This document shows, one piece after another, positions 3,552 through 57,328 of a stretch of DNA of 57,328 nucleotides. This stretch comes from Coriobacteriaceae bacterium (GTDB lineage: Bacteria; Actinomycetota; Coriobacteriia; Coriobacteriales; Atopobiaceae): assembly GCA_003862195.1 (NCBI GenBank), contig QOUO01000010.1:1-57328 (forward strand), written 5' to 3'. Positions within the stretch are counted from its first letter, which is position 1. Every line of letters starts with the position of its first letter. Position numbers and translations under genes: made by a program. Under the pieces are notes generated by a model. It made no database searches. It was given only the letters and a program-made list of their open reading frames with translations, and had not been told where the DNA came from.

Positions 3552-4420
3552 GGGTGCAGCCTGGCAGCGGGGCTGGGTCCTGTGCCACGACGCGGCCGAC
3601 CCCTGCACAGAACCCACTGGACCTTGCCCGGCCGAGCAATAACGACTGGGTTCTGTGTCATGTCCGGACGGCCGATGCGAGTTGTGGCCGGTTCTGTACC
3701 AAGCCATAAACTTCTTTACATATGGTGCGAGGCGTCTACCTCTGATCATGTGTTTCTTAAGCAGTCGGCTTTGCACAGAACCCTGAGTATCTTGCTGCGG
3801 GGTGGTACAGAACCCAAGGCTTTCGGTCGGGGACAGGTCGAAGCCGCACAGATCCCAATGGATTTCACCGGGCCGCGCAAAGTGAGCGGGGTTCTGTACC
3901 AAGGGCCGATGACGAAGCGCACAGAACCCTGTGAACCTTGCACTGGGGCGCAAGGACGTTGGGGTTCTGTGTCGCTGCCGGGATGCGCGTGCCAGTATTG
4001 GGCGGTTCTGTGCCCGTCATAAGCACCTTAATTTGTGTCGCGGGATCGCTACCTTGAGACATATGTTTTTGAATCGGATGCCGCCGCACAGAACCCTACC
4101 GATTTTGCGGATTGGTGGTACAGAACCCCGTCCTTGCAATCTGGGGCGTCTCCCCACCGCACAGAACCCTCTCGAGTCTCACAAGCCGCGCCAACAGGTT
4201 GGGGTTCTGTGCCGCTATCGCCTGGGCACGTGGTACAGAACCGAGGCGACCTTGCGGGCGCTGCGGGCAACGGCGGATTCTGTGCCACGCTGGGGTTCGC
4301 GTATGGTACAGAACCCAGTCGGCCTTTGTGGCTCACGCAAGGTGGGGAGGGTTCTGTGCGGTGCCGATGGTACAGAACCCGTCCGGTTGGGCAACGGGCG
4401 AGAAGGGCGGGTCCTGTGCC
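3510..4420. repeat. Array of about 23 alternating 12-mers (GGGTTCTGTGCC / GGCACAGAACCC)
   Basis: No gene is supported between 3473 and 4515. The block holds copies of GGGTTCTGT(G/A)CC (F) and its complement (R). F starts: 3510, 3575, 3648, 3689, 3889, 3962, 4003, 4202, 4275, 4349, 4409. R starts: 3531, 3604, 3772, 3804, 3845, 3918, 4085, 4117, 4158, 4232, 4305, 4369. R-to-F steps are about 44 bases, F-to-R steps about 29. Most positions recur at +313/314 (3531, 3845, 4158; 3575, 3889, 4202), so the block is a diverged tandem repeat in which the 12-mers are kept far better than the sequence between them. Two AT-richer gaps (about 3701-3771 and 4015-4084) are also related to each other. Adjacent F and R copies can form hairpins. 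Short frames through the block only read the repeat (VQNP, GTEP, GVLC). Confidence 0.9.
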
Positions 4421-4515
4421 AGCCGCCTGCCACGGCCCGGCGGCGTTCGCATCGAGCGCAATTTGCGTCCGCGTCCCGCGCTACGATAGATGCCGTCAAT
4501 CGAAGGGGAGGACTC

Positions 4516-7500
4516 ATGCCGCTCAACATCGTCACCACGGAGGACCAGAGGCTCGTTGGCGCGCCCGCGCTGGCGGCGTTGCGAAGGGCCGTGGGCGAGA
4601 AGGGCCGCGCGACGCTGCTGGTGCCGGACTTTGACAGGCAGCTCGACGCCTGCCGGGAGCTCGCGGCGCAGGGCCTCTCGCTTGGCGTGACTGTGACCAC
4701 GCCCGGTGCCTGGGTGCGCGAGCGTTGGCAGGTGTGGGGCGACGGCACCAACGTCGTGGAGCCGCTCGCGCGCACCGTCGCGCTGCAGTCGTCGCTGGCC
4801 GCCGCGGCGCGCGAGGGCACCCCCGACGCGCCCGCCTACAACGCCGGCACGGTCCGCGTGCTCTCGACGCTCGCGTCCGCCGCGCTGCCCTGGGTCCCCC
4901 TCCGCGAGGACGGCACCGTGGATGCGGACGCGCTCCTCGAACTGGGCCTCACGCGGGCGGAGGCAAACGTCGTCCGCGTGCTCGACCGCTACGTGGCGCT
5001 GCTGCGCGAGTCCTCCTACACGGAGGAGTCCGTCGCCATGGCGAGCGTGGTCGAGCGCGTGTGCGCGGCCGGCGCGCAGGCGTCGCTCTGGCCCACGGCG
5101 TTCGTTGGCTTCGACGAGCTGTCCAAGCCGCAGCGCGAGCTCGCGCTGTCCCTCGCCGCGCACACGGACGTGACTGCGGTCTTCCTTTCGGCAAACGAGG
5201 CCGCGGCCGCGGGGGCATCCCGCGCGGCGGCGTCCCTTGAGGATGCCTGCGCCAAGCGGGGCATCCCGTGCACGCAAACGGGCGAGAAGGGCGACGCCCC
5301 GGGGTCGGGTCACGCTCTGGAGCCCGGCCCCATCCCGGTACCGGACCGCGTCCCGGAGCTGTGGCACCTGCTCGAGGCCCTGTTCCGGGGCGACGAGCGC
5401 GTCGCGGCGGAGGGCGCCGTGTCTCTCGCCCTGCCCGCCGGCCCGCTGGCGGAGGCGGAGGCCGTCACGCAGGAGGTGCTCTCGCTCGCGGCGGACAGCT
5501 GCCGCAGCGTGGTCGTGGTGGCGCCGGACACCGTGCGCGCCTGGCGCGAGCTCGTGCCCAAGCTCGTCGCGCGCGGCTGCAGCGTGCGCGGGCGGGTCTC
5601 CGTGCCCGCCGCGAGCCTCGAGGCCCTGCGCGCGTACCTGGAGTTCGCGAGCTCCGTCGCCGTGCTGGCGGAGCTTGACGCCACGTGGCCCGAGCCCGAG
5701 CGCACGGAGGAGGGCACCATCGTCCACCTGGGCGACATGAGCTGGTGGCCGCCGCGGCACGTGACGGACTTCCTGCTGTGCGACGTGGCGCACGTCCCCA
5801 CGGCTCGCGCGTGGAACCTCGACCGCGCGTGGCGCGCAAACCGCCTGCTCACGCCCGCGGACGTGCTGCGGACGCTGCAGAACCCCGGTGCGACCTCACC
5901 CGAGGTTGCCGCGGCCACGCGCGAGCTGCTGCGCGGCCGGCTCGGATCGGCGGCGTCCAAGCTGTTGCAGCCGTACGTCGCGCGGCTGGCGCCGGTGTCT
6001 TCCGCCGCGGCGGGGGAGAAGGACGGCGGTCCCGCCGGCAGCGCCAACCCCGCCGGCACTCGTGCCGCCGCCAGCGCGCGCCCGGTCGACTACGTGACCG
6101 ACGACGACGGCAACGTCGCCGTCACGTGGACGCGCGAGGACGACCCGATGGCGGACGTCTGCGCCATGGGTTCGCTGCTGGCCGTGCTCAACGTGGCAGG
6201 CACCCTCAAGGAACTGCACTTCTCCGCGGATCCCAAGGCGGAGGACCGCGTGTCGCTGGCAGACCTGGTGCAGCGCTCGCGGGAGGCGCTCGCGGGCGTG
6301 TCTGTGCGGCTGCGTCCGGGTGTGGAGGCCAAGGGTGCATCGCCCGTCGCAAACGTGCAGGTCATGGGACCTGCGGATGTGGCTCGGCTGGCGGTCGGCT
6401 CCGTGGATGCGGTCATCGTGTGCGGGCAGAGCGCGGCGGAGTCGCCCGTGGAGCCCGCGGACGACGTGGCGAGCGCCCTGACCGAGGCCATCTGCCGCGA
6501 GCCCGCGCCCGACACCATGGCGCAGGCACGCGCAAGGTTCTGGCGCCAGATCGCCGCGGCGCGCCGGCACGTGACGCTCGAGCGCAGCGGCAACGACGCC
6601 GCGTCCAAGCCGCGCTACCCCTCCGTCATGCTGACGGAGCTGCTCGCGTGCTACGACGCCGCGGACGACGGCACGTCCAAGAGCGAGAAGGACGAGCATG
6701 ACGACACCAAGCCCAAGCGGGTCCTGGCCTGCCGCGCGCAGGCGGAGACCGAGGCCGTCGCCAACCTCAACCCGAGCGGCACGGCGCCTGCTGAACCGGT
6801 CGCGCGCGAGGGCGTGGCGCCGGCCGGGCGCGTGACGGACGCGGCGGCGCGGGCGCTCGTCAACGTGCCGGTCGAAGGCAAGCCCGAGCTGTTGGACGGC
6901 AGGCCGTACCTCTCGGCCTCGCAGATCGAGTCCTACCTGGAGTGCCCGTACAAGTGGTTCAGCCTGCGGCGGCTGCGCCTGCGCGACTCGGACGCGGGCT
7001 TTGGCCCGATGGAGATGGGCACGTTCGCGCACCACGTGATGGAGGTCACGCACCGCACGCTGCTGGAGGAAGGCCTGGCCGCCATGGAGGCGCGCGGCGA
7101 GGTCGTGCCGGACGTGGCCCAGGACCTGACGACGCCCGTGCCCGGTTCGCGCGTGAGCCTGGACGACCCGGCGGGGCTCGAGCACGCCAAGGAGCTCTTG
7201 CACCAGATGCTGGCCGCGGACCTGCGCGCGCAGTTCATCAGCACCGGGCGCCACGACCGCAGCCAGGCCTTCGTGCCGCACACCGCACAGGACGAGGGCC
7301 AGCTCCGCACGCTCGAGCGCGACCTCTGTACCGCGCTCGACTACGAGGCGGGGCTGCTCGACGGCTTCGAGCCGCGGCTCTTCGAGTGGGACTTCGGCCA
7401 CAAGGGCGACCTGGTGGAGTACGCGGGCGCCTGGCTCAACGGCACGGTCGACCGCGTGGACGTGGACGCCCACGGCGGCGCCGTCGTGATCGACTACAAG

Positions 7501-7965
7501 CACAAGGGGTTCAACGGCTTCGCGCGGGAGTATGCCGCGTTCGCCGGCGCGGACGACGGCAACGGGGGCGCGCCCTTCTCGCTCCCACGGCGCGTGCAGG
7601 CGCTCATCTACGCGCAGGTGGTGCGCCGGCACTTCCCCAACCTGGCCATCCGCGGCGCGACGTACCTCAACACCCGCGGACAGGACCACGTGCTGGCGGG
7701 CGCGGTGGACGAGGGCCAGATGGAGCGCGTGTTTGGCGTGCACCAGCCCAAGAAGGCCGCGGCAAAGGCCATGGCGGTGGAGAGGAACGCGGGCTTTGGC
7801 ACGGAGCACGCCCGGGGCATGGACGCCCTGCTCGACGCGACGGAGGAGGCCATCCGCGCCGCCGTGGCGCGCATGATGGAGGGCGACATCGAGGCGGCGC
7901 CCGTGGACGCGAGCGCCTGCGAGCACTGCCCGGTCATGAACTGCGAGAGGAAGATCACCAAGTGA
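4516..7965 (+). CDS. addB: AddB-like helicase-nuclease subunit (PD-(D/E)XK, Fe-S type)
   Basis: A protein of 1149 residues. The ATG at 4516 is used because GGGGAGG lies at 4506-4512; the frame is open further upstream only through the repeat array. The N-terminal two thirds are a divergent helicase-like region without a clear Walker A, as is common in AddB. The C-terminus is a RecB-type nuclease: ASQIESYLECPYKWF with C810, AVVIDYKHKGF with D993 and K995, and a closing cysteine set C1135-x2-C1138-x4-C1143. With C810 this matches the AddB 4Fe-4S staple. It overlaps addA by four bases. The pair resects double-strand breaks for recombination. Linkers contain GEKGD, GEKDG and SEKDE, copies or variants of the dispersed word. 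Confidence 0.85.
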   Translation: MPLNIVTTEDQRLVGAPALAALRRAVGEKGRATLLVPDFDRQLDACRELAAQGLSLGVTVTTPGAWVRERWQVWGDGTNVVEPLARTVALQSSLAAAAREGTPDAPAYNAGTVRVLSTLASAALPWVPLREDGTVDADALLELGLTRAEANVVRVLDRYVALLRESSYTEESVAMASVVERVCAAGAQASLWPTAFVGFDELSKPQRELALSLAAHTDVTAVFLSANEAAAAGASRAAASLEDACAKRGIPCTQTGEKGDAPGSGHALEPGPIPVPDRVPELWHLLEALFRGDERVAAEGAVSLALPAGPLAEAEAVTQEVLSLAADSCRSVVVVAPDTVRAWRELVPKLVARGCSVRGRVSVPAASLEALRAYLEFASSVAVLAELDATWPEPERTEEGTIVHLGDMSWWPPRHVTDFLLCDVAHVPTARAWNLDRAWRANRLLTPADVLRTLQNPGATSPEVAAATRELLRGRLGSAASKLLQPYVARLAPVSSAAAGEKDGGPAGSANPAGTRAAASARPVDYVTDDDGNVAVTWTREDDPMADVCAMGSLLAVLNVAGTLKELHFSADPKAEDRVSLADLVQRSREALAGVSVRLRPGVEAKGASPVANVQVMGPADVARLAVGSVDAVIVCGQSAAESPVEPADDVASALTEAICREPAPDTMAQARARFWRQIAAARRHVTLERSGNDAASKPRYPSVMLTELLACYDAADDGTSKSEKDEHDDTKPKRVLACRAQAETEAVANLNPSGTAPAEPVAREGVAPAGRVTDAAARALVNVPVEGKPELLDGRPYLSASQIESYLECPYKWFSLRRLRLRDSDAGFGPMEMGTFAHHVMEVTHRTLLEEGLAAMEARGEVVPDVAQDLTTPVPGSRVSLDDPAGLEHAKELLHQMLAADLRAQFISTGRHDRSQAFVPHTAQDEGQLRTLERDLCTALDYEAGLLDGFEPRLFEWDFGHKGDLVEYAGAWLNGTVDRVDVDAHGGAVVIDYKHKGFNGFAREYAAFAGADDGNGGAPFSLPRRVQALIYAQVVRRHFPNLAIRGATYLNTRGQDHVLAGAVDEGQMERVFGVHQPKKAAAKAMAVERNAGFGTEHARGMDALLDATEEAIRAAVARMMEGDIEAAPVDASACEHCPVMNCERKITK

Positions 7966-10900
7966 GCGGCTTCGACCTTGAAGGACTGAACGACGAGCAG
8001 CGCAAGATCGTGACGACCCTGGAGGAGCCGCTGTTTGTGGAGGCGGGCGCGGGGTCCGGCAAGACCTTCACCCTCACGCGGAGGGTGGCGTGGGCGCTCT
8101 CGCCCGGCTCCGGCACGGACGGCAGGCCTTTTCTGGACGACCTGTCGCAGGTGCTCGTGATCACGTTCACGGACGCCGCCGCGCAGGAGATCCGCGAGCG
8201 CGTGCGCTCCACGCTGCGCGAGTGCGGCATGCGCGAGCAGACGCTCCAGGTGGACTCCGCCTGGATCAGCACCATCCACGGCATGTGCGGGCGCATCCTC
8301 AGGCGCCACGCCTTCGAGCTGGGGCTCGACCCGCAGTTCAAGATCGTGGAGGGAAACGACGCCAGCGCCATCGAGGCGACGGCCCTGGAGCAGGTGGTGG
8401 GCGGCGCCTACCACGACGCGCGCGGCGCGCGGGAGGGCTCGCCCCTGCGCGAGGCCTTTGCGGAGTACACGCTCGGCACGGCCTCGGCCGATGGCTGCAC
8501 GGGGCTCATGGGCGTGGTGCAGGACGTGCGCGCCGCGGCCCGCTCCGTGCCGGATGGCTACAAGGGCCTGACGTTTCCGCAGGCAGACAGCGTGTCTGAG
8601 GTCATGGCGCGCCTCGCGGAGGAGCTGGAGTCCCTTGCGGCGCAAAAGCTCTCGGACGCGGCGGAAAGGAAGGTCAAGCCCTCCCTGGACGCCGTGAGGG
8701 GGTTCATGGAGCTCGCGCCGGGCAGGCGCACGGCGGCCGCGGCGCGCGACACGCTTGCGGCGGTGACGCTGCCGGCGCGCGGGGGCAAGGCCTTCCAGGA
8801 GCAGCTGGACGTGGCCAAGGACGCGCTCGCCGAGGCGAGGGCGTGCGTCCTTCTCGCCCGTCCGCGCGCGTGGGTGGATGACATCGTGGCGCTGGCGCAG
8901 CGGGTGGACGAGCGCGTGGCCGAGCTCGAGCGCGAGGCCGGCGTGCTTTCAAACGACGAGGTCGTGAGCCTGGCGCTTAGGGCCGTGCGCGACAACGACA
9001 CGGTGCGGAGCGACTACGCGGGCCGCTTTAAGCTCGTGATGGTGGACGAGTTCCAGGACACGGACGCCACGCAGCTCGAGCTCATCGGCCTGCTGGCAGG
9101 AAAGGATGCCCAGCACCTGGCCACCGTGGGCGACGCCCAGCAGTCGATCTACCGCTTCCGCGGTGCGGACGTGGGCGTGTTCCACGGCAGGGGAGAAGAG
9201 CTGCCCCCGTCGCAGCACGTGCGCCTTGCCGTCAACTACCGCAGCCACCGCGACGTGCTGAGGCTGGTGGACAGGGTCTGCGGCGGGCAGAACGGCGTGC
9301 TCAAGGGCTTCATGCACTTGGACGCCAACCCCAAGCGCGACGACAAGTACCGCGCCCGCGACCTGCCGCGCATCGACGTGGAGGTCACGCGCGGCTCGGG
9401 CACGCGCGGCCAGGTGAGCGCCACGCAGGCGGGCGTGGCCGCGGCCGCCATCGCGGACAGGCTCGCGGAGTACGCGGCCCACGGCGAGCGGCCGGGCGAC
9501 ATGGCGCTCCTCTTGGGCACCACGACCAAGGCCGCGGACTACATCGACGCCATCCGCGCGCGCGGACTCGAGTGCGTGGTCACGGGCGGCTCCACGTTCA
9601 CGAGGGCGCCCGAGGTCAAGGTCATGGCGAAGCTCCTGCACGTGCTCGCGAACCCCAAGGACACGAAGGCGGGGCTCTTCCCGCTGCTCACGAGCGAGAT
9701 GTTCGAGCTCGACGCGAGCGACCTCGTGCAGCTGGGCACGCGCGCACAGCGCGAGCTGGACGCGCCCACGATGCGCTCGATCGACCGCGGGCTCGAGACC
9801 ATGGCGTTCTTCCATGACGCCACGCCGTCCGCGCGGCTCTCCCACGCGCACGACGTGCTCGCGCGGGCGCGCCTCGCCCTCAGGACCAGGCCCGTGGCGG
9901 ACGTGTGCCTGCAGGTCGCCCGCGAGTCCGGCTGGCTCTCGCGCCTCGAGGCGGAGGGTGCGGCAGGCGTCGCGCGCGAGGCAAACGTGCTCGCGGCGGT
10001 GGACCACATCCGCGACCTCACGCAGTCCATGGGGCTCGGGCCCGCGCGCGCCGCGGCGGAGTTCGACCTCTGGCTCCAGGTCTCCAAGGTCGCGCCCGCG
10101 TCGCTTTCCGGCGGACCGGACAGCTCCGTCCGCGTGATGACGATCCACGCGTCCAAGGGCCTGGAGTTCCCAGTCACGGCAGTGGCGGAGTGCTGGGCCA
10201 CCCGTCCCGAGGGCGGCAAGCTGCGCCGACTCTCCACCGGGCGCGGCAGCGCGTGCGTCCTCATGCCGCAGCAGTCCCTTGCGAGCGACCTCAAGCGCGT
10301 CGAGGCCACGGACGACCCGTCCACGCTCGCGGAGTGGGCGCGCTACATCAAGGATGCAAACGACGAGGCCGCGGCGGCCGAGAAGACCAGGCTCCTCTAC
10401 GTGGCGCTCACCCGCGCCCGCGAGGCTCTCATCGTGGGCTGCAACGTGTCCACGAGCAAGGGCGCGGAGACGAAGCCCGAGCTCGCAGCGGGCTTCCTGA
10501 ACGCCCTGGTGCCCTCGGGCGTCGGGGCGCCGGGGGAGCGCCGCCTGCACCTCGACGTGGGCGACGGCCCGGACGACCCGCTCGACGTTGCGCTGCGCGT
10601 GATCGACGTGAGCAAGGAGGACGGCACGTTCACGGTGGACTCCGCGGGCTCGCTCGAGGGCGTGGACGGCACCATTGACGCCGCGGCCGACGACCAGCAG
10701 GATGCGCCCGACGGCCCCGGCGCCGCCGACGCGCCCGCGACCTACGACATCTACGCGAGCGAGCCCGACCCCTCCACGGCGCACGTCGAGTTCTGGAAGC
10801 CGCGCGAGGGCGTGTACAGCTTCTCGAGCGCGCATGAGCTCATGCGCGAGCGCTTTGCGGAGGGCGCCCCCATGGGCGAGAAGGACGCGGCCCCGTCCGA

Positions 10901-11546
10901 GGGCGCCAACCTGGGGAGGCCCGTCGCCGTGCGGGTCCCGACCCGCGCCGAGCGCGACGCGGAGCAGGAGGGTGCGCCCGTGACGGACGACGAGGACCGT
11001 GCCACGAACTTTGGCTCGGCCTTCCACGAGCTGGCGCAGTGCCTGGTGGAGCTGGGCAACGGCCTCGACGACCCGCTCGCCGTGCGCCTGCCCGACGCCC
11101 GCATCGAGGCGACGGCGGACCTCTGGCGGCTCTCGCCCAGGAACCGCACCCGCCTGAGGCAAGCGCTCGAGCGGTGGAGCGGCTCGGCTGTGCGTGCGGA
11201 GGCGCTCGGGCACAGGGTCGTCCGCGCCGAGGTCCCGTTCTTCTCAGCCGCGGACTCGGAGTTCGGCTCGTACGTGGAGGGCGCGATCGACCTTTTGGCC
11301 ACGGACCCCGGCTCGCGCGAGGCGTTCCTCGTGGACTACAAGACGGGCGACCGCGGGCTCACGGCCGCGCAGATCCACGCGCGCCACGAGATGCAGGCCA
11401 ACTTCTACGCGTCCGTGCTGATGGCGCAGGGGTTCGAGGCGGTGGAGTGCCGGTTCGTGTGCGTGGAGCTTGAGGACGCGGACGCCCCCGGCGAGCCGTT
11501 CTGCGCGCGATACCGCTTCGACGCGGGGCGTCGCCCTCGCATATAG
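7962..11546 (+). CDS. addA: AddA-type UvrD/RecB helicase-nuclease
   Basis: A protein of 1194 residues starting at GTG 7962 inside the addB stop (GTGA overlap), which argues for translational coupling. Walker A is EAGAGSGKTFTLTRR (K34). Other helicase motifs are VMVDEFQDTDATQ (motif II), VGDAQQSIYRFRGADV (III), MTIHASKGLEFPV (V) and LLYVALTRAREAL (VI). The C-terminal nuclease has GSAFHELAQ and FLVDYKTGD (D1125, K1127). This is the 3'-5' helicase plus nuclease half of AddAB. The acidic stretch before the nuclease contains GEKDAAP, again the dispersed word. Confidence 0.92.
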   Translation: MSGFDLEGLNDEQRKIVTTLEEPLFVEAGAGSGKTFTLTRRVAWALSPGSGTDGRPFLDDLSQVLVITFTDAAAQEIRERVRSTLRECGMREQTLQVDSAWISTIHGMCGRILRRHAFELGLDPQFKIVEGNDASAIEATALEQVVGGAYHDARGAREGSPLREAFAEYTLGTASADGCTGLMGVVQDVRAAARSVPDGYKGLTFPQADSVSEVMARLAEELESLAAQKLSDAAERKVKPSLDAVRGFMELAPGRRTAAAARDTLAAVTLPARGGKAFQEQLDVAKDALAEARACVLLARPRAWVDDIVALAQRVDERVAELEREAGVLSNDEVVSLALRAVRDNDTVRSDYAGRFKLVMVDEFQDTDATQLELIGLLAGKDAQHLATVGDAQQSIYRFRGADVGVFHGRGEELPPSQHVRLAVNYRSHRDVLRLVDRVCGGQNGVLKGFMHLDANPKRDDKYRARDLPRIDVEVTRGSGTRGQVSATQAGVAAAAIADRLAEYAAHGERPGDMALLLGTTTKAADYIDAIRARGLECVVTGGSTFTRAPEVKVMAKLLHVLANPKDTKAGLFPLLTSEMFELDASDLVQLGTRAQRELDAPTMRSIDRGLETMAFFHDATPSARLSHAHDVLARARLALRTRPVADVCLQVARESGWLSRLEAEGAAGVAREANVLAAVDHIRDLTQSMGLGPARAAAEFDLWLQVSKVAPASLSGGPDSSVRVMTIHASKGLEFPVTAVAECWATRPEGGKLRRLSTGRGSACVLMPQQSLASDLKRVEATDDPSTLAEWARYIKDANDEAAAAEKTRLLYVALTRAREALIVGCNVSTSKGAETKPELAAGFLNALVPSGVGAPGERRLHLDVGDGPDDPLDVALRVIDVSKEDGTFTVDSAGSLEGVDGTIDAAADDQQDAPDGPGAADAPATYDIYASEPDPSTAHVEFWKPREGVYSFSSAHELMRERFAEGAPMGEKDAAPSEGANLGRPVAVRVPTRAERDAEQEGAPVTDDEDRATNFGSAFHELAQCLVELGNGLDDPLAVRLPDARIEATADLWRLSPRNRTRLRQALERWSGSAVRAEALGHRVVRAEVPFFSAADSEFGSYVEGAIDLLATDPGSREAFLVDYKTGDRGLTAAQIHARHEMQANFYASVLMAQGFEAVECRFVCVELEDADAPGEPFCARYRFDAGRRPRI

Positions 11547-11606
11547 CTGCGGCCTGGCCGCCTGCGACTTGTGGACGGAATCTGGAGCGACGCCACATTC
11601 TGCGTG

Positions 11607-11647
11607 CCCCCGCTGACCTGCGGATACGTACCGCGGGGCAGCGGGGG
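11607..11647. other. Inverted repeat between addA and dnaE
   Basis: CCCCCGCTG (11607-11615) pairs with CAGCGGGGG (11639-11647), with an inner GC-rich arm. No T-run follows, so it may be a weak terminator for addBA or a structural element ahead of the dnaE control region. Confidence 0.4.
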
Positions 11648-11674
11648 TGCAGCTCAGGGGGCGTGTCCGAGGAT

Positions 11675-11688
11675 AGAACACGTGTTCT
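11675..11688. promoter_or_regulatory. LexA-type SOS box upstream of dnaE
   Basis: AGAACACGTGTTCT is a perfect 14-bp palindrome and contains GAAC-N4-GTTC, the core of the Gram-positive LexA/DinR box. It lies 74 bases before the dnaE ATG and upstream of a possible -10 (TATGAT, 11718-11723) whose -35 is poor. A copy of the word GGCGAGAAGA (minus strand, 11686-11695) overlaps its right end. Control of dnaE by LexA is inferred. Confidence 0.6.
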
Positions 11689-11761
11689 TCTCGCCCGCGC
11701 GGGCCCGCTGCGTGGGGTATGATGGTGCCCTAAAACGAGGACTTGCCAACGGAGGTTGCAC

Positions 11762-14700
11762 ATGGCTTTCGTCCACCTTCACAACCACTCGGACTTCTCC
11801 ATCCTGGACGGCGCGACGCGCATCCCGGACATGGTCAAGCGCGCCGTGGACCTGGGGATGCCCGCCGTCTCCATAACGGACCACGGTTACATGTTTGGCG
11901 TGCCGGAGCTCGACCTGGAGTGCCGCAAGTACAACGACGGCCAGAAGAACATGAAGCAGTGGCGCCACGACGTCGAGTGCTTCAAGAAGGAGTGGAAGCT
12001 CGAGGAGCCGGACCCGGACGCGGACGACGCGGACTACTTCGACCGCGTGCACGACCAGTGGGCCTCGGATGTGGACGTGTGGGAGAAGAGCGGGCATGAC
12101 CTCTCGGCGGTCGAGGCCAACCGGCCGCGCCTCAAGATCAAGCCGATCTTTGGCTGCGAGGCGTACTTCATTCCCGGCGACCACGTGGAGCGCGGCCACC
12201 GCGAGAAGCGCTACCACCTCATCCTGCTGGCCAAGAACTCGACCGGCTACCACAACCTGATCAAGTGCATGTCGGAGGCCGCCGGCCACGAGATGATGTA
12301 CTACGGCAAGCCGCACACGGTCTTCAGCATGCTCGAGCGCTACCACGAGGGCATCATCTGCCAGAGCGCCTGCGTGCAGGGCATCATCCAGCAGTGCGTG
12401 CTCGACGGGCAGTTCGACGAGGCGCGCGACTGGACGCGCAAGTTCCACGGCCTGTTTGGCGACGACTTCTACATGGAGATCCAGGACCACGGGCTCACGT
12501 TCCGCAACGGCTGGGACGACCGCAAGCTCGACGAGTACCTGGTCAAGCTCGCGCACGAGGAGGGCATCAAGGTCGTCTGCACCAACGACTTCCACTACCT
12601 CACGCGCGACGACGCGCCCACGCAGGACATCCTCTCGTGCATCGGCAAGGCGACCACGCTTGATGACCCCAATCGCATGCGCATGGAGGGCACCGAGTTC
12701 TACATGAAGAGCGAGGAGGAGATGCGCGAGCTCTTCTCGTGGTGCCCCGAGGCCGCGGACACGACGCTCGAGATCGCGGACAAGTGCAACTTCGAGCTCG
12801 ATTGGTCGAGCATGTACCTGCCCGAGTACCCTGGCCTCCGTCCCGGCGAGACGGCCGAGCAGCGCTTCCGCGAGGAGTGCGAGAAGGGCCTCGCGCGCCG
12901 CTACGGCGAGGACTGGCGCAACGTCACCATCGGCGACTGGAACGTCAAGGACCGCTTCGAGCACGAGTACAAGATCATCACGGAGAAGGGCTTCGCGAAC
13001 TACTTCCTGATCGTCCAGGACTACGTGCAGTGGGCCAAGGACAACGGCATCGGCGTCGGCCCGGGCCGTGGCTCCGCGGCGGGCGCCATCGTCGCGTACG
13101 CCATGAACATCACGAACTTCGACCCGCTCGAGAACGGGCTCATGTTCGAGAGGTTCCTCTCGCCCCAGCGTACCGAGATGCCCGATATCGACATGGACTT
13201 CGACGACGAGCACCTGCAGGACGTCCTGCAGCACGTGCGCGACGTCTACGGCGAGGACCACGTCTGCAAGGTCATCACGTACTCGACCATCAAGGCGAAG
13301 CAGGCCATCAACGACGCGAACCGCGTGCTGGGCTTCCCGGTCTTCATGGGTCAGAAGCTCTCGAAGATGCTGTCGAACGACCCCAAGCTCACGCTGCCCA
13401 ACGCCCTGCACAAGAACGAGAAGAAGCCCGACCAGTACTCCCCGGACTTCGAGGAGGCCTACAACAAGGACCCCGACGCGCACCGCATCATCGATGCGGC
13501 CATGTCCATCGAGGGCTTCATGCGCGGCGAGGGCGTCCACGCGTGCGCGACGCTCATCGCGCCGACACCCGTCACGGACCACGTGCCCACCAAGCTCGAC
13601 ACCAAGGGCAACGTCACCATCACGCAGTACGAGGGCCACTCGGTCGCGGACATGGGCCTGCTCAAGATGGACTTCCTGGGCCTGCGCACGCTGACGGTCA
13701 TCAACAAGGCCCTTGCCAACATCAAGCGCAGGTACCCCACGACCGCGGACATCGACCGCGTGCCGGAGTCGGTGCGCCGCTGCATCAAGGACGGGGCCAC
13801 CTGCGTCGACATCGACGTGGACAAGATCGACTTCTCGGACCCGAAGATCTACGAGCTCCTGGGCTCGGGCCAGACGGCCGGCGTGTTCCAGGTCGAGTCC
13901 GGCGGCATGACCGCGACCATCAAGAACATGCAGCCCAACCAGTACAAGCAGATCGTCGCTCTCATCGCGCTCTACCGCCCGGGCCCGCTCGGCGCCGGCA
14001 TGGTCGACAGCTACATCAAGCGCATGCACGGCGAGGAGAAGATCTCGTACTACGATGACCGCCTCAAGCCGATCCTGGAGGAGACCTACGGCACCATGGT
14101 CTACCAGGAGCAGGTCATGCAGATCTCCATGAAGATGTCCGGCTTCACGCCCGGTGAGTCCGACTCCCGCATGCGCAAGCCGGTCGCCAAGAAGAAGATC
14201 AAGATGCTGACCGACCAGATCTTCCACTGGGAGAAGACCGGCGCGGACGAGACGATCTACGACCACTGGATGAACGGCGCCGTCGCCAACGGCTACAAGC
14301 GCGAGATCGCGCAGGAGATCTGGGACAACGTCCTCGAGTTCGCGTCCTACGCGTTCAACAAGTCGCACTCCGCCGGCTACGCCATCCTGGTCATGCAGAC
14401 GGCCTGGCTGAAGGCCTACTTCCCCAAGGAGTACATGGCCTCCGTCCTCACGTCCTACATGGGCAAGACGGACAAGATCGTCCACTACGTCACGGCGTGC
14501 AACCACGACGGCACCAAGGTCCTCCCGCCAGACATCAACGAGTCCGGCAAGGACTTCACGGCCACCGACGAGGGCATCCGCTTCGGCTTCGCCGGCATCC
14601 GCGGCGTGGGCGAGGGTCCCGCCGAGGCCATCATGGCGGAGCGCTCCGCGAACGGACCGTTCAAGAGCCTGCACGACTTCTGCGAGCGCGTCGACACGAC

Positions 14701-15673: not shown

Positions 15674-15710
15674 TTACCCAGGCGGCCTTGGGCGGCGGCC
15701 TTGCGGGACG

Positions 15711-16625: not shown

Positions 16626-16826
16626 GTTGCCTCCGGGCGGTGGTGTTGGGACTGCACGACGTGACTCTACCACGCGGCGCTGCCCGCGGCTGGCGGATGG
16701 CCGGGTTCTGCCGTTTGCGGCGGGAGGGGAATAGAGCGCCGCGAGGCGGGAACAATAGACCAGAAGGGCGCCCACGCGACGCCCGAGGCGTGGTTTGAGA
16801 GGACCCACTTACAAGGAGGAAAGCGT

Positions 16827-17207: not shown

Positions 17208-17254
17208 ACCCAGTTTGACGGACGGGTTGCCCCGCGGGGCGACCCGAGGGCATC

Positions 17255-17309
17255 TCCCTCCGTCGGGCGTCGACCCCATGGTGGGCGTGCCCGACGGAGG
17301 GATTTCTTT
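17255..17309 (+). terminator. 14-bp hairpin after dfx, overlapping the next Shine-Dalgarno
   Basis: TCCCTCCGTCGGGC (17255-17268) pairs perfectly with 17289-17302; TTTCTTTC follows. It looks like the dfx terminator, but its 3' arm contains GGAGGG, the only Shine-Dalgarno candidate for the gene at 17313. Read-through transcripts would therefore have that site paired. Confidence 0.75.
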
Positions 17310-17312
17310 CAC

Positions 17313-19226: not shown

Positions 19227-19252
19227 CACACGGCCTGCGGGGCACTGTGATA

Positions 19253-20592: not shown

Positions 20593-20595
20593 CCT

Positions 20596-43788: not shown

Positions 43789-43845
43789 CGCCCGCCCCAG
43801 TCCGCCAACGTGGCGCGACCGAGGCGGGCGTTCTTCTCGCCCTTT
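43789..43845 (+). terminator. Terminator of the GH36 gene with a word copy in its tail
   Basis: CGCCCGCC (43789-43796) pairs with GGCGGGCG (43823-43830), followed by TTCTTCTCGCCCTTT. The pyrimidine tail is the minus-strand word GGCGAGAAGA (43832-43841). Lies between convergent genes. Confidence 0.65.
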
Positions 43846-44809: not shown

Positions 44810-46786
44810 CTACTCGAGCTCGAAGGCGCCCGTGTAGAGCTGGTAGTACGTGCCCCTCTGGGCGATTAGCTCGTCGTGCGTGCCCTTCTCGATGATGCGA
44901 CCGTGGTCGAGCACGATGATCACGTTCGAGTTGCGCACGGTGGAGAGCCTGTGCGCGATCACGAAGGTCGTGCGCCCGTACATGAGGGCGTCCATGCCCT
45001 TCTGGACGATCTGCTCGGTGCGCGTGTCGATGGAGGAGGTGGCCTCGTCCAGGATCATCGCAGGCGGGTCGGCCACGGCGGCGCGGGCGATGGAGAGGAG
45101 CTGGCGCTGGCCCTGCGAGAGCTGCGCGGCGTTGTCGGTCAGCATCGTGTCGTACCCCTCGGGAAGGCGCCTGATGAAGCTGTCGGCACCCGCGAGCTTG
45201 GCCGCGCCGATGCACTCCTCGTCCGTGGCATCCAGGCGCCCGTAGCGGATGTTGTCCATGACGGTGCCCGTGAACAGGTTCACGTCCTGGAGCACGATGC
45301 CGAGCGAGCGGCGCAGGTCGCCCTTCCTGATCTTGTTGATGTTGATGCCGTCGTAGCGGATCTTGCCGTCCGCAATGTCGTAGAAGCGGTTGATGAGGTT
45401 CGTGATCGTGGTCTTGCCGGCGCCCGTCGCGCCCACGAAGGCGACCTTCTGGCCGGGCTTCGCGAAGAGCGAGATGTCGTGCAGGACCATGTGGTCGGGG
45501 GTGTAGCCAAAGTCGACGTGCGAGAGGCGGATGTCCCCGGCGAGCGGGGTGTACGTGACGCTGCCGTCGTGGTGCGGGTGCTTCCATGCCCACATCTCGG
45601 TCCGCTCGGAGCACTCCTCGAGCTCGCCGTCGGCACCCTTGCGGACGTTCACCAGGGTGACGTAGCCGTCATCGGACTCGGGCTCCTCGTCGATGAGCGA
45701 GAAGATCCTCTCCGCGCCGGCGAGGCCCATGACCACGAAGTTGATCTGCTGCGACACCTGGCCGATGGAGCCGGCGAAGCGCTTCGTCATGTTCAGGAAC
45801 GGGACGACGACGGCGATGGAGAGCGCCATGCCGCTGATGGAGGGGTTGGGGAAACCCGTGGTGAGAAACGCGACCCCCGCGAGCGCGACGATGACGTAGG
45901 CGAGGTTGCCCATGTTCATGAGGACGGGCATGAGCGTGTTGCCGTAGGTGTTGGCGGTTCGGGACGCCTCGTACAGGGCGTCGTTCACGGCGTCGAACTC
46001 CTCGATGGTCTTGGCCTCGTGCGTGAAGACCTTGATGACCTTCTCGCCGTTCATGGCCTCCTCGGCAAAGCCCTCGGTGCGGGCGAGCTGCACCTGCTGG
46101 TCCAGGAAGTAGTGGGCGCTCCTTCCGCCGAGCACGCGCGTGGCGTAGACCATGCACGCGACCATGGCGAGGACCACGAGGGAGAGGGGGATGGAGTACC
46201 AAAGCATGATGACGAGCACCGAGACCATGGCGAACAGCATCGTGAGGAGGTTGGGGAGCGACTGGCCGATCAGCTGACGCAGCGTGTCCACGTCGTTGGT
46301 GTAGTGGCTCATGATGTCGCCGTGCTTGTTGGTGTCGAAGTAGCGGATGGGCAGGCTCTCCATGTGGTCGAACATCTGGTCGCGGACCTTCATGAGCGTG
46401 CCCTGGCAGACGATGGCGCCAAGCTGCGTGTAGGCGATGTTGGCGGCAAGGGCGATGACGTAGCAGGTGATAAGCCCGAGCGCGATGCCGGCGATCTTGG
46501 GGCCGGCAGAGGCCCAGTCGCCCGTGGGGAACGCGTGCTGCACCACGTCGATTGCCTGCTGCAGGAAGATCGACGGGACGGACGCGAGCACGGACGAGAC
46601 GATGATGCAGATCACCATGACCGTCGTGTGCACGGGGTAGTAGTGGAACACCATGCGGAGAATGCGCTTGAACGTGGCGCCGGGCCTCTGGGAGCCGCGG
46701 TGCCCGGAGGGAGCGCCCTCGCGTCCCGCCTGCGGCGTGGGCTCGGTGGTCGCGTTCTTCTCGGCGGAAGTGTCGTTGCTACTCAT
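44810..46786 (-). CDS. Heterodimeric multidrug ABC exporter, subunit with canonical ATP site
   Basis: A 658-residue half-transporter: a polar N-terminus with AEKNATTEP (a word variant), six transmembrane helices, then an ATPase domain. Walker A is VGATGAGKTT, the signature LSQGQRQLLSIARA, and Walker B MILDEATSSID with the catalytic Glu. A charged insertion before the ATPase (about residues 395-430) is longer than usual. Its start overlaps the upstream half-transporter by eight bases. The pair probably forms a BmrCD-like heterodimer that expels drugs or lipids. Confidence 0.93.
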   Translation of the reverse strand: MSSNDTSAEKNATTEPTPQAGREGAPSGHRGSQRPGATFKRILRMVFHYYPVHTTVMVICIIVSSVLASVPSIFLQQAIDVVQHAFPTGDWASAGPKIAGIALGLITCYVIALAANIAYTQLGAIVCQGTLMKVRDQMFDHMESLPIRYFDTNKHGDIMSHYTNDVDTLRQLIGQSLPNLLTMLFAMVSVLVIMLWYSIPLSLVVLAMVACMVYATRVLGGRSAHYFLDQQVQLARTEGFAEEAMNGEKVIKVFTHEAKTIEEFDAVNDALYEASRTANTYGNTLMPVLMNMGNLAYVIVALAGVAFLTTGFPNPSISGMALSIAVVVPFLNMTKRFAGSIGQVSQQINFVVMGLAGAERIFSLIDEEPESDDGYVTLVNVRKGADGELEECSERTEMWAWKHPHHDGSVTYTPLAGDIRLSHVDFGYTPDHMVLHDISLFAKPGQKVAFVGATGAGKTTITNLINRFYDIADGKIRYDGININKIRKGDLRRSLGIVLQDVNLFTGTVMDNIRYGRLDATDEECIGAAKLAGADSFIRRLPEGYDTMLTDNAAQLSQGQRQLLSIARAAVADPPAMILDEATSSIDTRTEQIVQKGMDALMYGRTTFVIAHRLSTVRNSNVIIVLDHGRIIEKGTHDELIAQRGTYYQLYTGAFELE

Positions 46787-49170: not shown

Positions 49171-49340
49171 CATATTTGGTCCCGAAGGGACTGCCGCTGG
49201 CATGCCGCTGCCTTCTTGCCCTGCCGTTGTGACGTGGCAGCATGGCGTCCCAGATGGGCGAGAAGGACGAGCTCCCTCGGCGGCAACATCATCCAAGTGC
49301 GGAGTGGGCGTTTCTCACCTGCGACTTTACAAAGCGATGA
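49171..49340. other. Non-coding stretch between the exporter and phosphate promoters
   Basis: No gene is supported. It contains one exact dispersed word (GGCGAGAAGG, 49257-49266) and nothing else that I can assign; a GC-rich part gives way to AT-richer sequence near the Pho box. Confidence 0.5.
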
Positions 49341-50451: not shown

Positions 50452-51410
50452 TGACTGCAATTGGGGAGAAGACCGTGTCTAACAAGTCCGAGTCCACGGC
50501 CGAGGTCGTGGGCGTCTCCCCCAAGCGAGGCATCGAGCGCAGGGGCCAGATCATCACTGGCCTCTGCGTTACTCTTGTCGTCGTCTTGGTGGTGACACTT
50601 ATCTTCATGGTGTGCTCGCGAGGGCTCGCCACGTTCACCAAGGACGGAATCCCCCTGGGGTCCTTCTTTGGCGGAACTACCTGGAACCCGCACCAGAACG
50701 GTGCAGACGGAGTGCCCCTGGTCGGTGCGCTGCCCATGATCGTGGGCTCGTTCTCCGTCACGCTGCTGTCCTGCCTGATCGCGCTCCCGTTTGCGCTCGG
50801 CGCCTCGATCTTCGTGGTCGAGATCGCCCCCGGCTTCGGCAGCAAGATCTTCCGTCCGCTCACCGAGGTCCTCGTCGGCATCCCGTCCGTCGTGTTCGGC
50901 CTCGTCGGCCTGGGCATCATCGTCCCGTGGATGCGCGGCCTCGTCGGCGGCACGGGCTACGGCATCCTGTCCGCGTCCATCGTGCTCGCGTTCATGATCC
51001 TGCCCACCATCACGTCGCTGTCCACCGACGCGCTCGCCGCGGTTCCCAACAGCTACCGCGACGGCTCGTACGGCCTGGGCTGCACCCGCTGGCAGACCAT
51101 CGTCGGCGTCGTGCTTCCCTCCGCGCTGCCCGGCATCCTCACGGCCATCATCATGGGCATGAGCCGCGCCTTCGGCGAGGCGCTGGCCGTCCAGATGGTC
51201 ATCGGCAACGCCGCACAGATGCCGCAGGGCCTCTTCACCCCCGCGTCCACGCTCACGTCGGTCCTGACCATGGGCATGGGCAACGAGGCAATGGGCACGC
51301 TCCCCAACGACGTGCTCTGGGCACTGGCCATGGTCCTTCTCATCATGTCCCTTGTGTTCATCCTGATCGTCCACCTCATCGGCAGGAAGGGGGCCGCAAA
51401 GAATGACTAG
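50451..51410 (+). CDS. pstC: Phosphate ABC transporter permease PstC
   Basis: A 319-residue membrane protein. Its ATG overlaps the pstS stop by one base (TAATG). A polar N-terminus with GEKTVS precedes about six helices. Permease signatures are GIPSVVFGLVGLG and the EAA-like loop NSYRDGSYGLGCTRWQT. Forms the channel with PstA. Confidence 0.96.
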   Translation: MTAIGEKTVSNKSESTAEVVGVSPKRGIERRGQIITGLCVTLVVVLVVTLIFMVCSRGLATFTKDGIPLGSFFGGTTWNPHQNGADGVPLVGALPMIVGSFSVTLLSCLIALPFALGASIFVVEIAPGFGSKIFRPLTEVLVGIPSVVFGLVGLGIIVPWMRGLVGGTGYGILSASIVLAFMILPTITSLSTDALAAVPNSYRDGSYGLGCTRWQTIVGVVLPSALPGILTAIIMGMSRAFGEALAVQMVIGNAAQMPQGLFTPASTLTSVLTMGMGNEAMGTLPNDVLWALAMVLLIMSLVFILIVHLIGRKGAAKND

Positions 51411-52374
51411 CGCACAGGAAACCGCTGTCGCGGGCGAGAAGAACGCGCCCAACCAGTCCATGCCCAATGCCGACTACACGGCCACCGCTCACAAGGCCCG
51501 CGTGCAGGACAAGGTCGCCACGGGCATCCTCGCCGCCATCGTCGGCGTCATCATCGTGGCCCTCGTCGCGATCATCGTCTACATCCTGGCGTCCGGCGCC
51601 TCCAAGCTCGTGGACGTCCACTTCCTGACGGCAAAGCCCGAGCAGTTCAAGGCGGGCGGCGGCATCGGCCCCGAGCTCTTCAACTCGTTCTACCTGCTCG
51701 TGCTCACGCTGCTCATCTCGGTCCCCATCTCGCTTGGCGCGGCCATCTTCCTCACGCAGTACGCGCCGCAGGGCAGGATCACCAACATCGCCAAGACGGC
51801 AATCGAGACACTGTCGAGCCTTCCCTCCATCGTCGTTGGCCTCTTCGGCATGCTAACCTTCGTCCTCACGCTGCACTGGGGCTTCTCCATCCTCTCCGGC
51901 GCCCTTGCGCTCACGATGTTCAACATCCCCATCCTCGTCCGCGTGATCCAGCAGGCGCTCGAGGCCGTCCCGCGCGACCAGCGCGACGCCGCCCTGGCGC
52001 TCGGCCTCACCCGCTGGGAGGCCACCATGCACGTGCTCGTGCCGGCAGCCATGCCCGCCATCGTCACGGGCGTCGTCCTCTCTGCAGGCCGCGTCTTCGG
52101 CGAGGCGGCAGCGCTCATCTACACTGCCGGCCAGTCCGCACCCGTGCTCAGCTGGTCCGCTCCCATCTGGAGCCTCTCCAACCCGCTGAACGTCTTCCGT
52201 CCGGCCGAGACCCTGGCCGTGCACATCTGGAAGATAAACTCCGAGGGCGTCGTGCCCGACCTCTCGGCAGTCTCCGCCGGCACCGCAGCCGTCCTGATGG
52301 TCTGCATCCTGGCATTCGACATCATCGCGCGTGTCGCCGGACGCGCGCTCGAGAGGAAGCTGACGGCAGAATGA
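51403..52374 (+). CDS. pstA: Phosphate ABC transporter permease PstA
   Basis: A 323-residue membrane protein overlapping pstC by eight bases. N-terminal AGEKNAP is a copy of the dispersed word. Signatures are [15 protein letters not shown] and the loop [18 protein letters not shown]. Partner of PstC. Confidence 0.96.
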
Positions 52375-54591: not shown

Positions 54592-55270
54592 CGTGGTCTA
54601 CTACGTCGAGGATGACACGAACATACGCGAGCTCACGGTCTACGCGCTCCGCCAGGCGGGCATCGAGTCCGAGGGCTTCTCGGACGACGCCGAGTTTCGT
54701 GTCGCGTGCGCAAAGCGCACCCCCGACGCAGTACTTCTCGACATCATGCTCCCGGACACGGACGGGCTCCAGATACTCAAGCGTATCAGGCGCACGCCAG
54801 GGTTGGAGAACGTCCCGGTCATGATGCTCACCGCAAAGGACACGGAGCTCGACACGGTCCGCGCCCTCGACAACGGTGCCGACGACTACCTCGCCAAGCC
54901 CTTCGGCATGATGGAGATGGTGAGTCGCGTGCGCGCGCTCCTGCGCCGCGCGGGCCGCTCCACCACGGGCGAGAAGAACGAGGTGCTCTCGCTGGGGCCG
55001 CTCACGCTCTGGCCAAAGCGCCGCGAGGTGACGCTCGAGGGAGTCGAGCTCAGCCTCACCCAGCGCGAGTTCGACCTGCTCGAGTTCCTCATGAGGTCTC
55101 CGGGCGAGGTGTTCAGCCGCGAGGAGCTGCTCCAGCGCGTCTGGGGCTGGGACTTCGACGGTGGCTCCCGCACGGTCGACGTGCACGTCCAGCAGCTACG
55201 CGCAAAGCTGGGCAAGCACTCGGACCTCATAGAGACGGTCCGTGGCGTAGGCTACAGGGCCAGGGGTTAG
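54584..55270 (+). CDS. Response regulator, OmpR/PhoB class
   Basis: A 228-residue protein. The receiver domain has acidic D10/D11, phospho-acceptor D53 (LLDIMLP), and Thr and Lys in MLTAKD and LAKPFG. The effector is a winged helix (LTQREFDLLEFLM, SRTVDVHVQQLRAKLG). The linker between the domains reads TTGEKNEV, an exact copy of the dispersed word. By position it is the PhoB/PhoP of this pst operon and the probable Pho-box binder. Confidence 0.95.
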   Translation: MTDVVYYVEDDTNIRELTVYALRQAGIESEGFSDDAEFRVACAKRTPDAVLLDIMLPDTDGLQILKRIRRTPGLENVPVMMLTAKDTELDTVRALDNGADDYLAKPFGMMEMVSRVRALLRRAGRSTTGEKNEVLSLGPLTLWPKRREVTLEGVELSLTQREFDLLEFLMRSPGEVFSREELLQRVWGWDFDGGSRTVDVHVQQLRAKLGKHSDLIETVRGVGYRARG

Positions 55271-56821: not shown

Positions 56822-56917
56822 CTCCCATGCCCCCACGCGGCGATGCGCTAAGAGCGTGAAGCCGCGCGTCCGATGCTATTCTTCTAAACAAGAGGAAAAC
56901 GCGACGACTGGGAGCGC

Positions 56918-57163
56918 ATGCGCGGGGACATCGTATCCATACGCGACGTGATCGCGGCAAACAATATGCTTGAGCAGCGGGGGAGCGGCCTTCGCGTCCA
57001 CATGCATGACGCGTGCGGAGGGCAGAGCTTCTCGCTGCGTGGCGACGCGGGCGAGAAGGGCACGGATGTCGACAGGCAGGCAGTGCTCGACTGCATGCGC
57101 TCGCTCGGCCACACGATGGAGTTTGCCGAGGACGGCGTCAACTTCTGGGTGGCTCGCGCATGA
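56918..57163 (+). CDS. Small protein of unknown function
   Basis: An 81-residue protein. ATG 56918 has GGGAG upstream. The sequence is compact (SIRDVIAANNMLEQRGSG, then RVHMHDACGGQSFSLRG), with an internal GDAGEKGTD copy of the dispersed word between two halves. His and Cys (HMHDAC) could bind metal, but I do not recognise a family. Its stop overlaps the start of the next gene (ATGA), so the two are probably co-translated. Confidence 0.7.
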   Translation: MRGDIVSIRDVIAANNMLEQRGSGLRVHMHDACGGQSFSLRGDAGEKGTDVDRQAVLDCMRSLGHTMEFAEDGVNFWVARA

Positions 57164-57328
57164 GCGCCGGAGGCGACGTGACGGGCGAGAAGAGCGAGGG
57201 CCTCGTACAGAAGGTCAAGGGCATGCTGAGCGAGCGCTTCACGAAGTTCGTGGGGTCGTCGCTCATCAGCACGCTCGTGGACCAGGTCATGGCCTTCCTG
57301 CTCTTTGGGTGGCTGCGCCCCGTCTTTG
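57160..57328 (+). CDS. GtrA-like membrane protein (3' truncated by window end)
   Basis: Only the first 56 residues are present. A polar N-terminus with TGEKSEG (an exact dispersed word) is followed by RFTKFVGSSLISTLVDQVMA, which resembles the first helix of GtrA/DPMS-related small membrane proteins (KFxxVGxxxTxVD). These take part in cell-surface polysaccharide export. The call rests on one segment. Confidence 0.55.
   Translation, partial: MSAGGDVTGEKSEGLVQKVKGMLSERFTKFVGSSLISTLVDQVMAFLLFGWLRPVF

Follow-up and report, generated by a model that had tools for sequence, protein, structure and literature searches.

Why should one short DNA word recur on both strands, within unrelated genes and between them, along a stretch of bacterial DNA? 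The question arises from 57,328 nt of an Atopobiaceae genome (contig QOUO01000010.1 of assembly GCA_003862195.1; this whole stretch is hereafter the window), in which an earlier note, made from the sequence alone, had described 25 exact copies of GGCGAGAAGR, from 4397 to 57193, and likened them to a DNA-uptake sequence. Both the count (14 copies on the plus strand, 11 on the minus) and the coordinates of the first and last copies were confirmed, and 100 dinucleotide shuffles of the window gave a mean of 0.42 copies and a maximum of 3. GGCGAGAAGR is the commonest form of a longer word, GGSGAGAAGRRCG, in which S is C in most copies, and we propose, with a probability of about 0.77, that this word is an uptake sequence of its host, which would favour the DNA of close relatives in natural transformation. 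The sequence supports the likeness drawn in the earlier note: counts near those of codon-preserving shuffles, a strong strand skew and a lack of competence genes, the three findings that would speak against it, were each looked for and none was found. In every respect that can be decided at this level the word behaves as an uptake sequence would, and it does not appear to descend from either the DNA uptake sequence (DUS) of the Neisseriaceae or the uptake signal sequence (USS) of the Pasteurellaceae.

Abundance, consensus and core of the word

The genome (G000; 2,422,853 bases in 155 contigs, 99.25 % complete) contains 233 forward and 231 reverse copies of GGCGAGAAGG, against 7 and 4 of the reversed word used as a control, and 664 copies of GGCGAGAAGRRC (350 and 314), against 18 (6 and 12) of its reversed control. 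These counts rule out a local peculiarity of the window, the word being about as frequent across the whole genome, where the earlier note would have it counted, as it is there. In a sample of 421,528 bases (the window plus 364 kb), the 9-mer GGCGAGAAG occurs 196 times, with 39.8 expected from an order-4 Markov model whose training sequence includes the word; for each of the lengths 10, 11 and 12 bases, the twelve words listed with the strongest over-representation are all fragments of the consensus, and so are the first eight of 9 bases.

A logo of 195 sites anchored on the 9-mer reads C-G-GGCGAGAAG-R-R-C-G, with G in 81 % of sites directly before the word and C in 96 % at position +11; when the logo was extended to 100 bases, nothing strong was seen beyond about 14 bases except codon periodicity. 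Single-mismatch forms are in excess at positions 1, 2, 3 and 9, with little excess at position 8 and none at 4 to 7. Counted between genes, with the other positions and the C at +11 fixed, variants at positions 1 to 9 number 6, 23, 29, 1, 1, 0, 0, 5 and 10, beside 69 consensus copies; all 5 variants at position 8 are G, and the largest variant, with 26 copies, has G for C at position 3. Since the base before GAGAA thus varies (69 C and 26 G between genes), CGAGAA is ruled out as the core. Intergenic GAGAA is followed by C after exactly three bases in 200 of 243 cases, compared with 12 to 87 at seven other distances. The strict core is therefore GAGAA-NNN-C, with looser edges. The genome also has a second word form, GGGGAGAAGNNC, with 26 intergenic copies beside 69 of GGCGAGAAGNNC.

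The density of the word varies with base composition. In 2-kb segments with a GC content below 0.58 there are no words in 12,000 bases (0.25 expected), and density rises from 2.0 words per 10 kb at 0.58–0.62 (40,000 bases) to 4.1, 4.6 and 6.0 in the higher bins. Relative to an order-2 expectation, the excess goes, with rising GC, from 0 of 0.25 to 7-, 15-, 18- and 26-fold (GC of 0.70 and above); the excess of the word thus falls together with GC beyond what composition accounts for. The words of contig C122, where an integrase gene is accompanied by two long genes, are confined to the neighbourhood of the contig ends (382 and 9267 of 9,424). The 14 kb of contig C102, which also encodes an integrase, include two words, and in the integrase region of contig C25 none lies before position 7282.

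Occurrence and dialects of the word in related genomes

The host is assigned to the Atopobiaceae, near Parafannyhessea. The protein encoded at 11762–15673, read as DnaE, is 95 % identical along its length to the protein of Parafannyhessea umbonata strain 105184 and 71–88 % to 26 other full or partial matches from Olsenella, Tractidigestivibacter and similar records; of the remaining loci, two distant ones stand at 34 % and another matches over 50 residues only. The species name is not to be leaned on, because another record named P. umbonata, KHGC19 (L021, DnaE at 87 %), is nearly devoid of the word (1 copy in 24 kb).

GGCGAGAAGRRC was counted in 395 genomes of the order, in which reversed controls reached at most 50. 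It occurs 510–664 times in three species of the genus of the window and 344–1,005 times in 30 of the 31 species of group g33, the exception being G087 with 80. Counts of 71–277 were found in g15, g27, g34, g20 and single members of g24 and g25, of 98–249 in the four species of g38, a genus of another family, and of 53–93 in a few others (such as G006, G009, G020 and G138), with at most 47 elsewhere. Among 149 genomes of the phylum, the 13-mer GGGCGAGAAGRRC occurs 569 times here and 251 and 367 times in two genomes of g33; none of the 137 Actinomycetota genomes sampled outside the order, which reach 9.7 Mb, has more than 16 copies. The word is specific to a clade.

In the intergenic parts of samples of 14–160 kb per relative, 9 of the 20 genus-level groups sampled proved to be enriched in a word of this kind. 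The 9-mer GGCGAGAAG itself is enriched in g1 (64 copies against 2.8 expected), g33 (13 against 0.81), g27 (11 against 0.51) and g15 (9 against 0.29); of the two g38 genomes, it is clear in G144 (6 against 0.24) and not in G143 (2 against 0.29). Other groups carry dialects: TGCCGAGAAACCC in g16, where GCCGAGAAA occurs 11 times (0.26 expected) and GGCGAGAAG is absent; GCCGAGAAACCC in g17 (CGAGAAACCC, 6 against 0.07); CGAGAAGAGC in g24 (7 against 0.04); and CGAGAAGATC in g2 (4 against 0.01). Named loci were pooled by DnaE similarity, and enrichment is clear in one of eight such pools, most of the others being too small to tell; this pool comprises eight loci, from Tractidigestivibacter, close Olsenella records and two others, which share the dialect GCCGAGAAAA (GCCGAGAAA, 18 against 0.36). 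No clear enriched word was found in g11, g13, g14, g18, g19, g21, g26, g28, g30, g34 and g35, the samples from g18 and g30 being small. Groups g34 and g14 are high in GCCGAGAARNNC across the whole genome or in whole-sample words, not clearly so between genes, and were not counted as dialects; whole-genome counts of GCCGAGAARNNC mix the dialect with Ala-Glu-Lys codons.

Judged from these samples, the dialects share a constant core and differ mostly at positions 1, 2, 3 and 9. Where sites were anchored on CGAGAA, the ninth base after the start of the anchor is C in 63–89 % of cases in groups with the word and, given enough sites, in 46–58 % in groups with a weak word or none; constancy within an anchor (CGAGAA or GAGAA) arises partly by construction, although the unanchored word lists agree. 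The C three bases after GAGAA forms a clear peak in g1, g33, g27, g17, g2 and G144 and a narrower one in g15 and g16, is not the peak in g24, and is mildly raised in some word-free groups (G052, G020 and g34).

Alternative explanations

The word could instead be bound by a nucleoid protein, a chromosome organiser or a global regulator with a specificity that has drifted between genera. A strict core with variable edges resembles a site read by a protein, there is a mild orientation preference between genes of the same direction, and density in the 421-kb sample is about three times higher between genes (1.1 per kb) than within them (0.38 per kb); these densities are approximate, as the 351 genes were called with a simple codon-usage caller of our own. 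Nevertheless, some 70 % of the copies are coding, and Gly-Glu-Lys, seen 113 times with 27 expected, ranks first in over-representation among tripeptides with 40 or more occurrences, neither of which would be expected of sites kept in set places. Additionally, spacing is close to random (242 intervals with a mean of 2,142 bases and a coefficient of variation of 0.93). We thus consider this explanation unlikely. In nine contig stretches totalling 569,443 bases there are six inverted pairs closer than 60 bases, such as might double as terminators (five of one arrangement, one of the other), and three pairs of neighbours at this distance share a strand; the only inverted close pair of the window (27241–27285) sits within a gene, and the placement beside terminators given in the earlier note was not established. 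Near position 15343 of contig C36 (L059) a 17-base unit containing the word is tandemly repeated, giving three words in a row.

A Chi-like recombination-control site, or a replication-polar signal of the FtsK-orienting type (KOPS), would be read in one direction by a helicase-nuclease or a translocase. Such sites are, like this word, dispersed and non-palindromic, and the word is as widespread and abundant as they would be. However, Chi and KOPS sites are strand-skewed, and in the nine stretches the majority coding strand carries 132 words and the opposite strand 119 (p = 0.45 for a share of one half and 1.5e-14 for one of 75 %), the majority gene strand serving as a proxy for the leading strand, as the origin was not located; the complete chromosome of the same genus (G055) apparently does not start at the origin, to judge from its first predicted genes, and its positions were not used. 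Intergenic words alone number 28 and 43, respectively, and contig C1, with 80 % of its coding bases on the minus strand, has 35 words on the plus strand and 33 on the minus. The mixed orientation that the earlier note held against polar signals is therefore borne out by this proxy, and speaks against a polar signal, a reading that was rejected. Known Chi sites are also shorter than the consensus of about 13 bases, and neither an intergenic excess nor dialects between related genera would be expected. We regard a signal of this type as very unlikely.

It is still less probable that the word marks self DNA for defence or DNA processing, for instance by sparing it from a nuclease, rather than for uptake. 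Dispersed self-specific words do serve in this way, as Chi does in the acquisition of CRISPR (clustered regularly interspaced short palindromic repeats) spacers, and dialects would mark lineages equally well; uptake sequences are, however, closer to the word in density, in placement on both strands and in the combination of a core with dialects, no search for defence systems having been made.

A codon or peptide effect is highly improbable. GGC GAG AAG encodes Gly-Glu-Lys in the favoured codons of a high-GC genome, and 101 of the 140 coding copies of the 9-mer are sense copies in frame 0 (of 103 sense copies in all), while synonymous shuffling yields 81.6. The coding copies, in 371,559 bases, compare with 23.6 when codon order is permuted within genes and with 87.0 after synonymous shuffling, which retains the Gly-Glu-Lys peptides, themselves enriched, so that the counts are not near those of the codon-preserving shuffles that the earlier note had named as a comparison. 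There are 37 antisense copies, where synonymous shuffling gives about 5 and permuted codon order 3, and the 50,196 intergenic bases contain 56 copies against 2.3 from a Markov model trained on those bases, a 25-fold excess. The intergenic and antisense counts contradict a codon or peptide effect and, together with the control across the phylum (the 13-mer at 569 copies here and at most 16 in the 137 genomes outside the order), rule it out, and they uphold the view of the earlier note that selection acts on the DNA word and not on the peptide. The excess of Gly-Glu-Lys is the imprint of the DNA word on proteins. Along genes, the word shows a mild excess in the first tenth.

Carriage by a mobile element or repeat family is hardly conceivable and was ruled out, since, despite two small tandem arrays of the word (C1 at 77131 and C36 at 15343), conservation around the 195 sites ends at about 14 bases, codon periodicity apart, and copies lie in frame within unrelated genes.

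Competence genes and the Tad pilus

The earlier note proposed looking for competence and pilin genes. The genome contains a comEA-comEC operon, whose ComEA has SLBB and helix-hairpin-helix domains and whose ComEC has Competence and metallo-beta-lactamase domains, with a copy of the word near the start of comEA, and it also encodes DprA. The N-terminal family of type IVa pilins (N_methyl) had no match in the genome at E values up to 0.1, and the single T2SSE ATPase is TadA of a Tad (tight adherence) pilus operon, so the competence genes are present and, as to pilins, an Flp-like Tad pilin was identified by its sequence instead of a type IVa pilin. This operon codes for a SAF/RcpC-type protein (CpaB), a ParA-like protein (TadZ), TadA, two T2SSF proteins (TadB and TadC), the Flp-like pilin, whose Pfam match is below the cut-off, and pseudopilin-like proteins. 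One of its products, of 669 residues (L126, 1025–3034), has a pseudopilin-like N-terminus and no Pfam match, and counterparts of 669–689 residues occur in all ten Tad operons read.

Transformation of Micrococcus luteus requires Tad loci (PMC12849477), and in Liberibacter crescens Tad pili have been tied to DNA uptake (PMC8513845). Within the family, ComEC and a T2SSE ATPase are each found in 137 of 140 genomes and in all 101 good ones. Gene order in the ten Tad operons is alike, as far as the gene caller recovered it. No receptor candidate emerged by presence or absence among the Tad genes of these ten genomes, in which the caller missed some operon genes (e.g., Flp in G058 and several Tad genes in G028 and G055), and ComEA, whose pattern matched 4 of 10 loci, was not compared across genomes. 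Trees were made for TadA (8 of the 10 genomes, the selection rule having missed two), where G058 stands beside G028, and for the 669–689-residue protein (all ten).

Proposed mechanism and points against it

Under the proposed uptake function, a surface DNA receptor of the transformation machinery would prefer the word. The receptor is probably a Tad pseudopilin or ComEA, which may bind the word on double-stranded DNA; retraction of the pilus would then carry the bound DNA to ComEA/ComEC, and one strand would enter the cell and recombine. As fragments bearing the word would enter more often, biased uptake and recombination could spread new copies wherever genes tolerate them, a form of molecular drive. 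Drift in the preference of the receptor might change the dialect, and loss of the preference or of uptake would let the word decay.

Several observations weigh against this explanation. Genera with the word and genera without it are not told apart by their competence genes: the Tad operon is present in all ten genomes read, six with the word and four without. In the Tad trees, word-free genera adjoin word-bearing ones (G040 and G036 stand beside the genus of the window and, for TadA, G058 beside G028), so that gains or losses must be frequent and the trait would turn over. A narrow search for work on natural transformation of these bacteria brought up no paper, and competence is therefore inferred from the genes. 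Between genes of the same direction, 34 of 51 words point against transcription (p = 0.024), a preference that is unexplained, and the sense copies in frame 0, in favoured codons, are to be set beside the 81.6 of the synonymous shuffles. Scarcity of the word in foreign DNA could not be shown: the excess falls with GC and the integrase-bearing stretches are poor in words, but in the longest word-free stretch (C3, 38644–54200) the genes were read as core genes and not as foreign DNA, among them recA, one like that of RNase Y and one for tRNA modification, and uptake sequences would be expected to serve core genes. In the Tractidigestivibacter-like pool, C at three bases after GAGAA occurs 27 times, with 33 and 36 at two other distances. 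As to conservation of position, 2 of the 6 words in window positions 6169–24887 are kept in L009, at 81 % identity, too few sites to weigh either way.

Copies of the word in the window and other repeats

The 9-mer GGCGAGAAG has 28 copies in the window (Table 1), the three beyond GGCGAGAAGR being followed by C or T; 17 are sense copies in frame 0 (Gly-Glu-Lys), 5 antisense and 6 intergenic. The sense contexts GEKD, GEKN and GEKG, the antisense contexts FSP or LLA, and the placement between genes were all as the earlier note had described. Its statement that several reading phases are used holds through the antisense copies, which read LLA in one phase and FSP/LFS in another, and fails for the sense copies, which use a single phase in the window.

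Table 1. Positions and contexts of the 28 copies of the word in the window (CDS, coding sequence; the word is GGCGAGAAGR).
Position	Strand	Form	Context
4397–4406	+	word	intergenic (genes ending 3472 / starting 4516), on the margin of a different repeat array
4594–4603	+	word	sense GEKG in CDS 4516–7965
5281–5290	+	word	sense GEKG in CDS 4516–7965
8849–8858	-	word	antisense (LLA) in CDS 7962–11546
10875–10884	+	word	sense GEKD in CDS 7962–11546
11686–11695	-	word	intergenic between 11546 and 11762
15616–15625	-	word	antisense (LLA), near C-terminus of CDS 11762–15673 (read as dnaE)
19026–19035	+	word	sense GEKG in CDS 17313–19226
23317–23326	+	word	sense GEKG in CDS 22738–24165
27241–27250	-	word	antisense (LFSP) in CDS 26697–28109; inverted pair with 27276–27285
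27276–27285	+	word	sense GEKG in CDS 26697–28109; inverted pair with 27241–27250
28573–28582	-	word	sense GEKD in CDS 28256–30955 (-)
29407–29416	-	word	sense GEKD in CDS 28256–30955 (-)
30751–30760	-	word	sense GEKD in CDS 28256–30955 (-)
32258–32267	-	word	intergenic between 32178 and 32534
34397–34406	+	9-mer then C	intergenic between 34191 and 34468
34605–34614	-	word	sense GEKG in CDS 34468–35718 (-)
37264–37273	+	word	antisense (LFSP) in CDS 37017–38123 (-)
38353–38362	+	word	sense GEKD at residue 2 of CDS 38350–39072
40479–40488	+	9-mer then C	sense GEKL in CDS 39585–41351
42246–42255	-	9-mer then T	antisense (LLA) in CDS 41506–43749
43832–43841	-	word	intergenic between 43749 and 43860
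46039–46048	-	word	sense GEKV in CDS 44810–46786 (-)
49257–49266	+	word	intergenic between 49081 and 49498
51433–51442	+	word	sense GEKN near N-terminus of CDS 51403–52374
54968–54977	+	word	sense GEKN in CDS 54593–55270
57050–57059	+	word	sense GEKG in short predicted CDS 56918–57163
57184–57193	+	word	sense GEKS in predicted CDS at window edge

A different repeat, ACAGAACC, has 18 copies on both strands in a non-coding stretch of ca. 900 bases (3530–4423 of the window), with start-to-start spacings of 73 and 241 bases and many mutually inverted arms; three further copies occur across the 569 kb surveyed, and at the corresponding place L009 has a gap of just some 200 bases. Contigs C22 to C24 of the genome (L193–L195) contain no readable bases (GC 0.00).

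Other frequent words were seen in the relatives. In G144 (L160–L161, family f3), AAGCGATCG occurs 8 times between genes with 0.24 expected, and recalls the cyanobacterial HIP1. Words such as GACTGGTAAT and GTTTGATTAC occur 31–32 times in 80 kb of G036 (L092–L095), in what looks like a CRISPR array, whereas another frequent word family is found in 80 kb of G020 (L080–L083; AGTAGCGCTG, 16 copies, and GAGCGTGTAG, 15). In g34 (L112–L115 and L171–L174), intergenic GACAAAGGGA and ACAAAGGGAC occur 9 and 8 times, respectively, with about 0.1 expected.

Comparison with known systems

The Neisseriaceae and Pasteurellaceae are the only families known for a preference for self DNA, according to PMC12616744. 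The word described here is likely to represent a third, independently evolved self-DNA recognition for transformation. It would be the first such system in the Actinomycetota or among Gram-positive bacteria as a whole; its GAGAA-NNN-C dialects would number at least five, in the Atopobiaceae and possibly in one neighbouring family, and its reader would be a Tad-pilus pseudopilin or ComEA rather than a minor pilin of type IVa. Among open-licence full texts (preprints were outside the search), none was found on an uptake sequence in Coriobacteri, Olsenella or Atopobi, the one match being an unrelated gonococcal paper; titles and abstract starts among the matches listed for open-licence papers named no actinobacterial uptake sequence, and GGCGAGAAGG gave unrelated titles among the matches listed. 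If experiments confirm the proposal, this would be the first uptake tag known outside those two families, and a third case, in a distant phylum and with another pilus, would mean that self-preference in DNA uptake evolves repeatedly. It would also lead one to expect natural competence in these commensals of animals and humans, give geneticists a tag for transforming the bacteria that bear the word, and allow drive and benefit to be tested on an independent replicate, in which sister genera have the machinery without the word.

The closest parallels in machinery are M. luteus, with ComEA/ComEC and Tad genes (PMC12849477), and L. crescens, with Tad and ComEC (PMC8513845), the same kinds of genes as found here. 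They differ in that the term "uptake sequence" had no match in either paper, nor "sequence specificity" in PMC12849477.

The USS of the Pasteurellaceae resembles the word in having a 9-base core, a genome-wide distribution and dialects with a constant inner core (PMC12616744), and differs in its unrelated sequence and in belonging to a different phylum and pilus. Specifically, a USS proper has a GCGG core and AT-rich downstream blocks, and the 100-base logo of 195 sites shows no AT-rich flanking blocks.

The DUS of the Neisseriaceae, read by the minor pilin ComP, likewise differs in sequence, the host here belonging to the Actinomycetota, and the density of the word is lower, about one 12-mer per 3.6 kb. 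A DUS proper has a CTG core and ComP as its receptor; here the word is another one, the lone T2SSE ATPase belongs to the Tad operon, and no ComP-type pilin was seen, given that no N-methylated type IVa pilin was found (no N_methyl match at E values up to 0.1). Five Neisseriaceae genomes have no obvious DUS, and all DUS dialects keep CTG plus one A (PMC3630211). The two systems are thus alike in having hundreds of copies of a word of 10–14 bases on both strands, members of the family without an obvious word, and dialects built around an invariant core, CTG plus A in the Neisseriaceae and GAGAA-NNN-C here.

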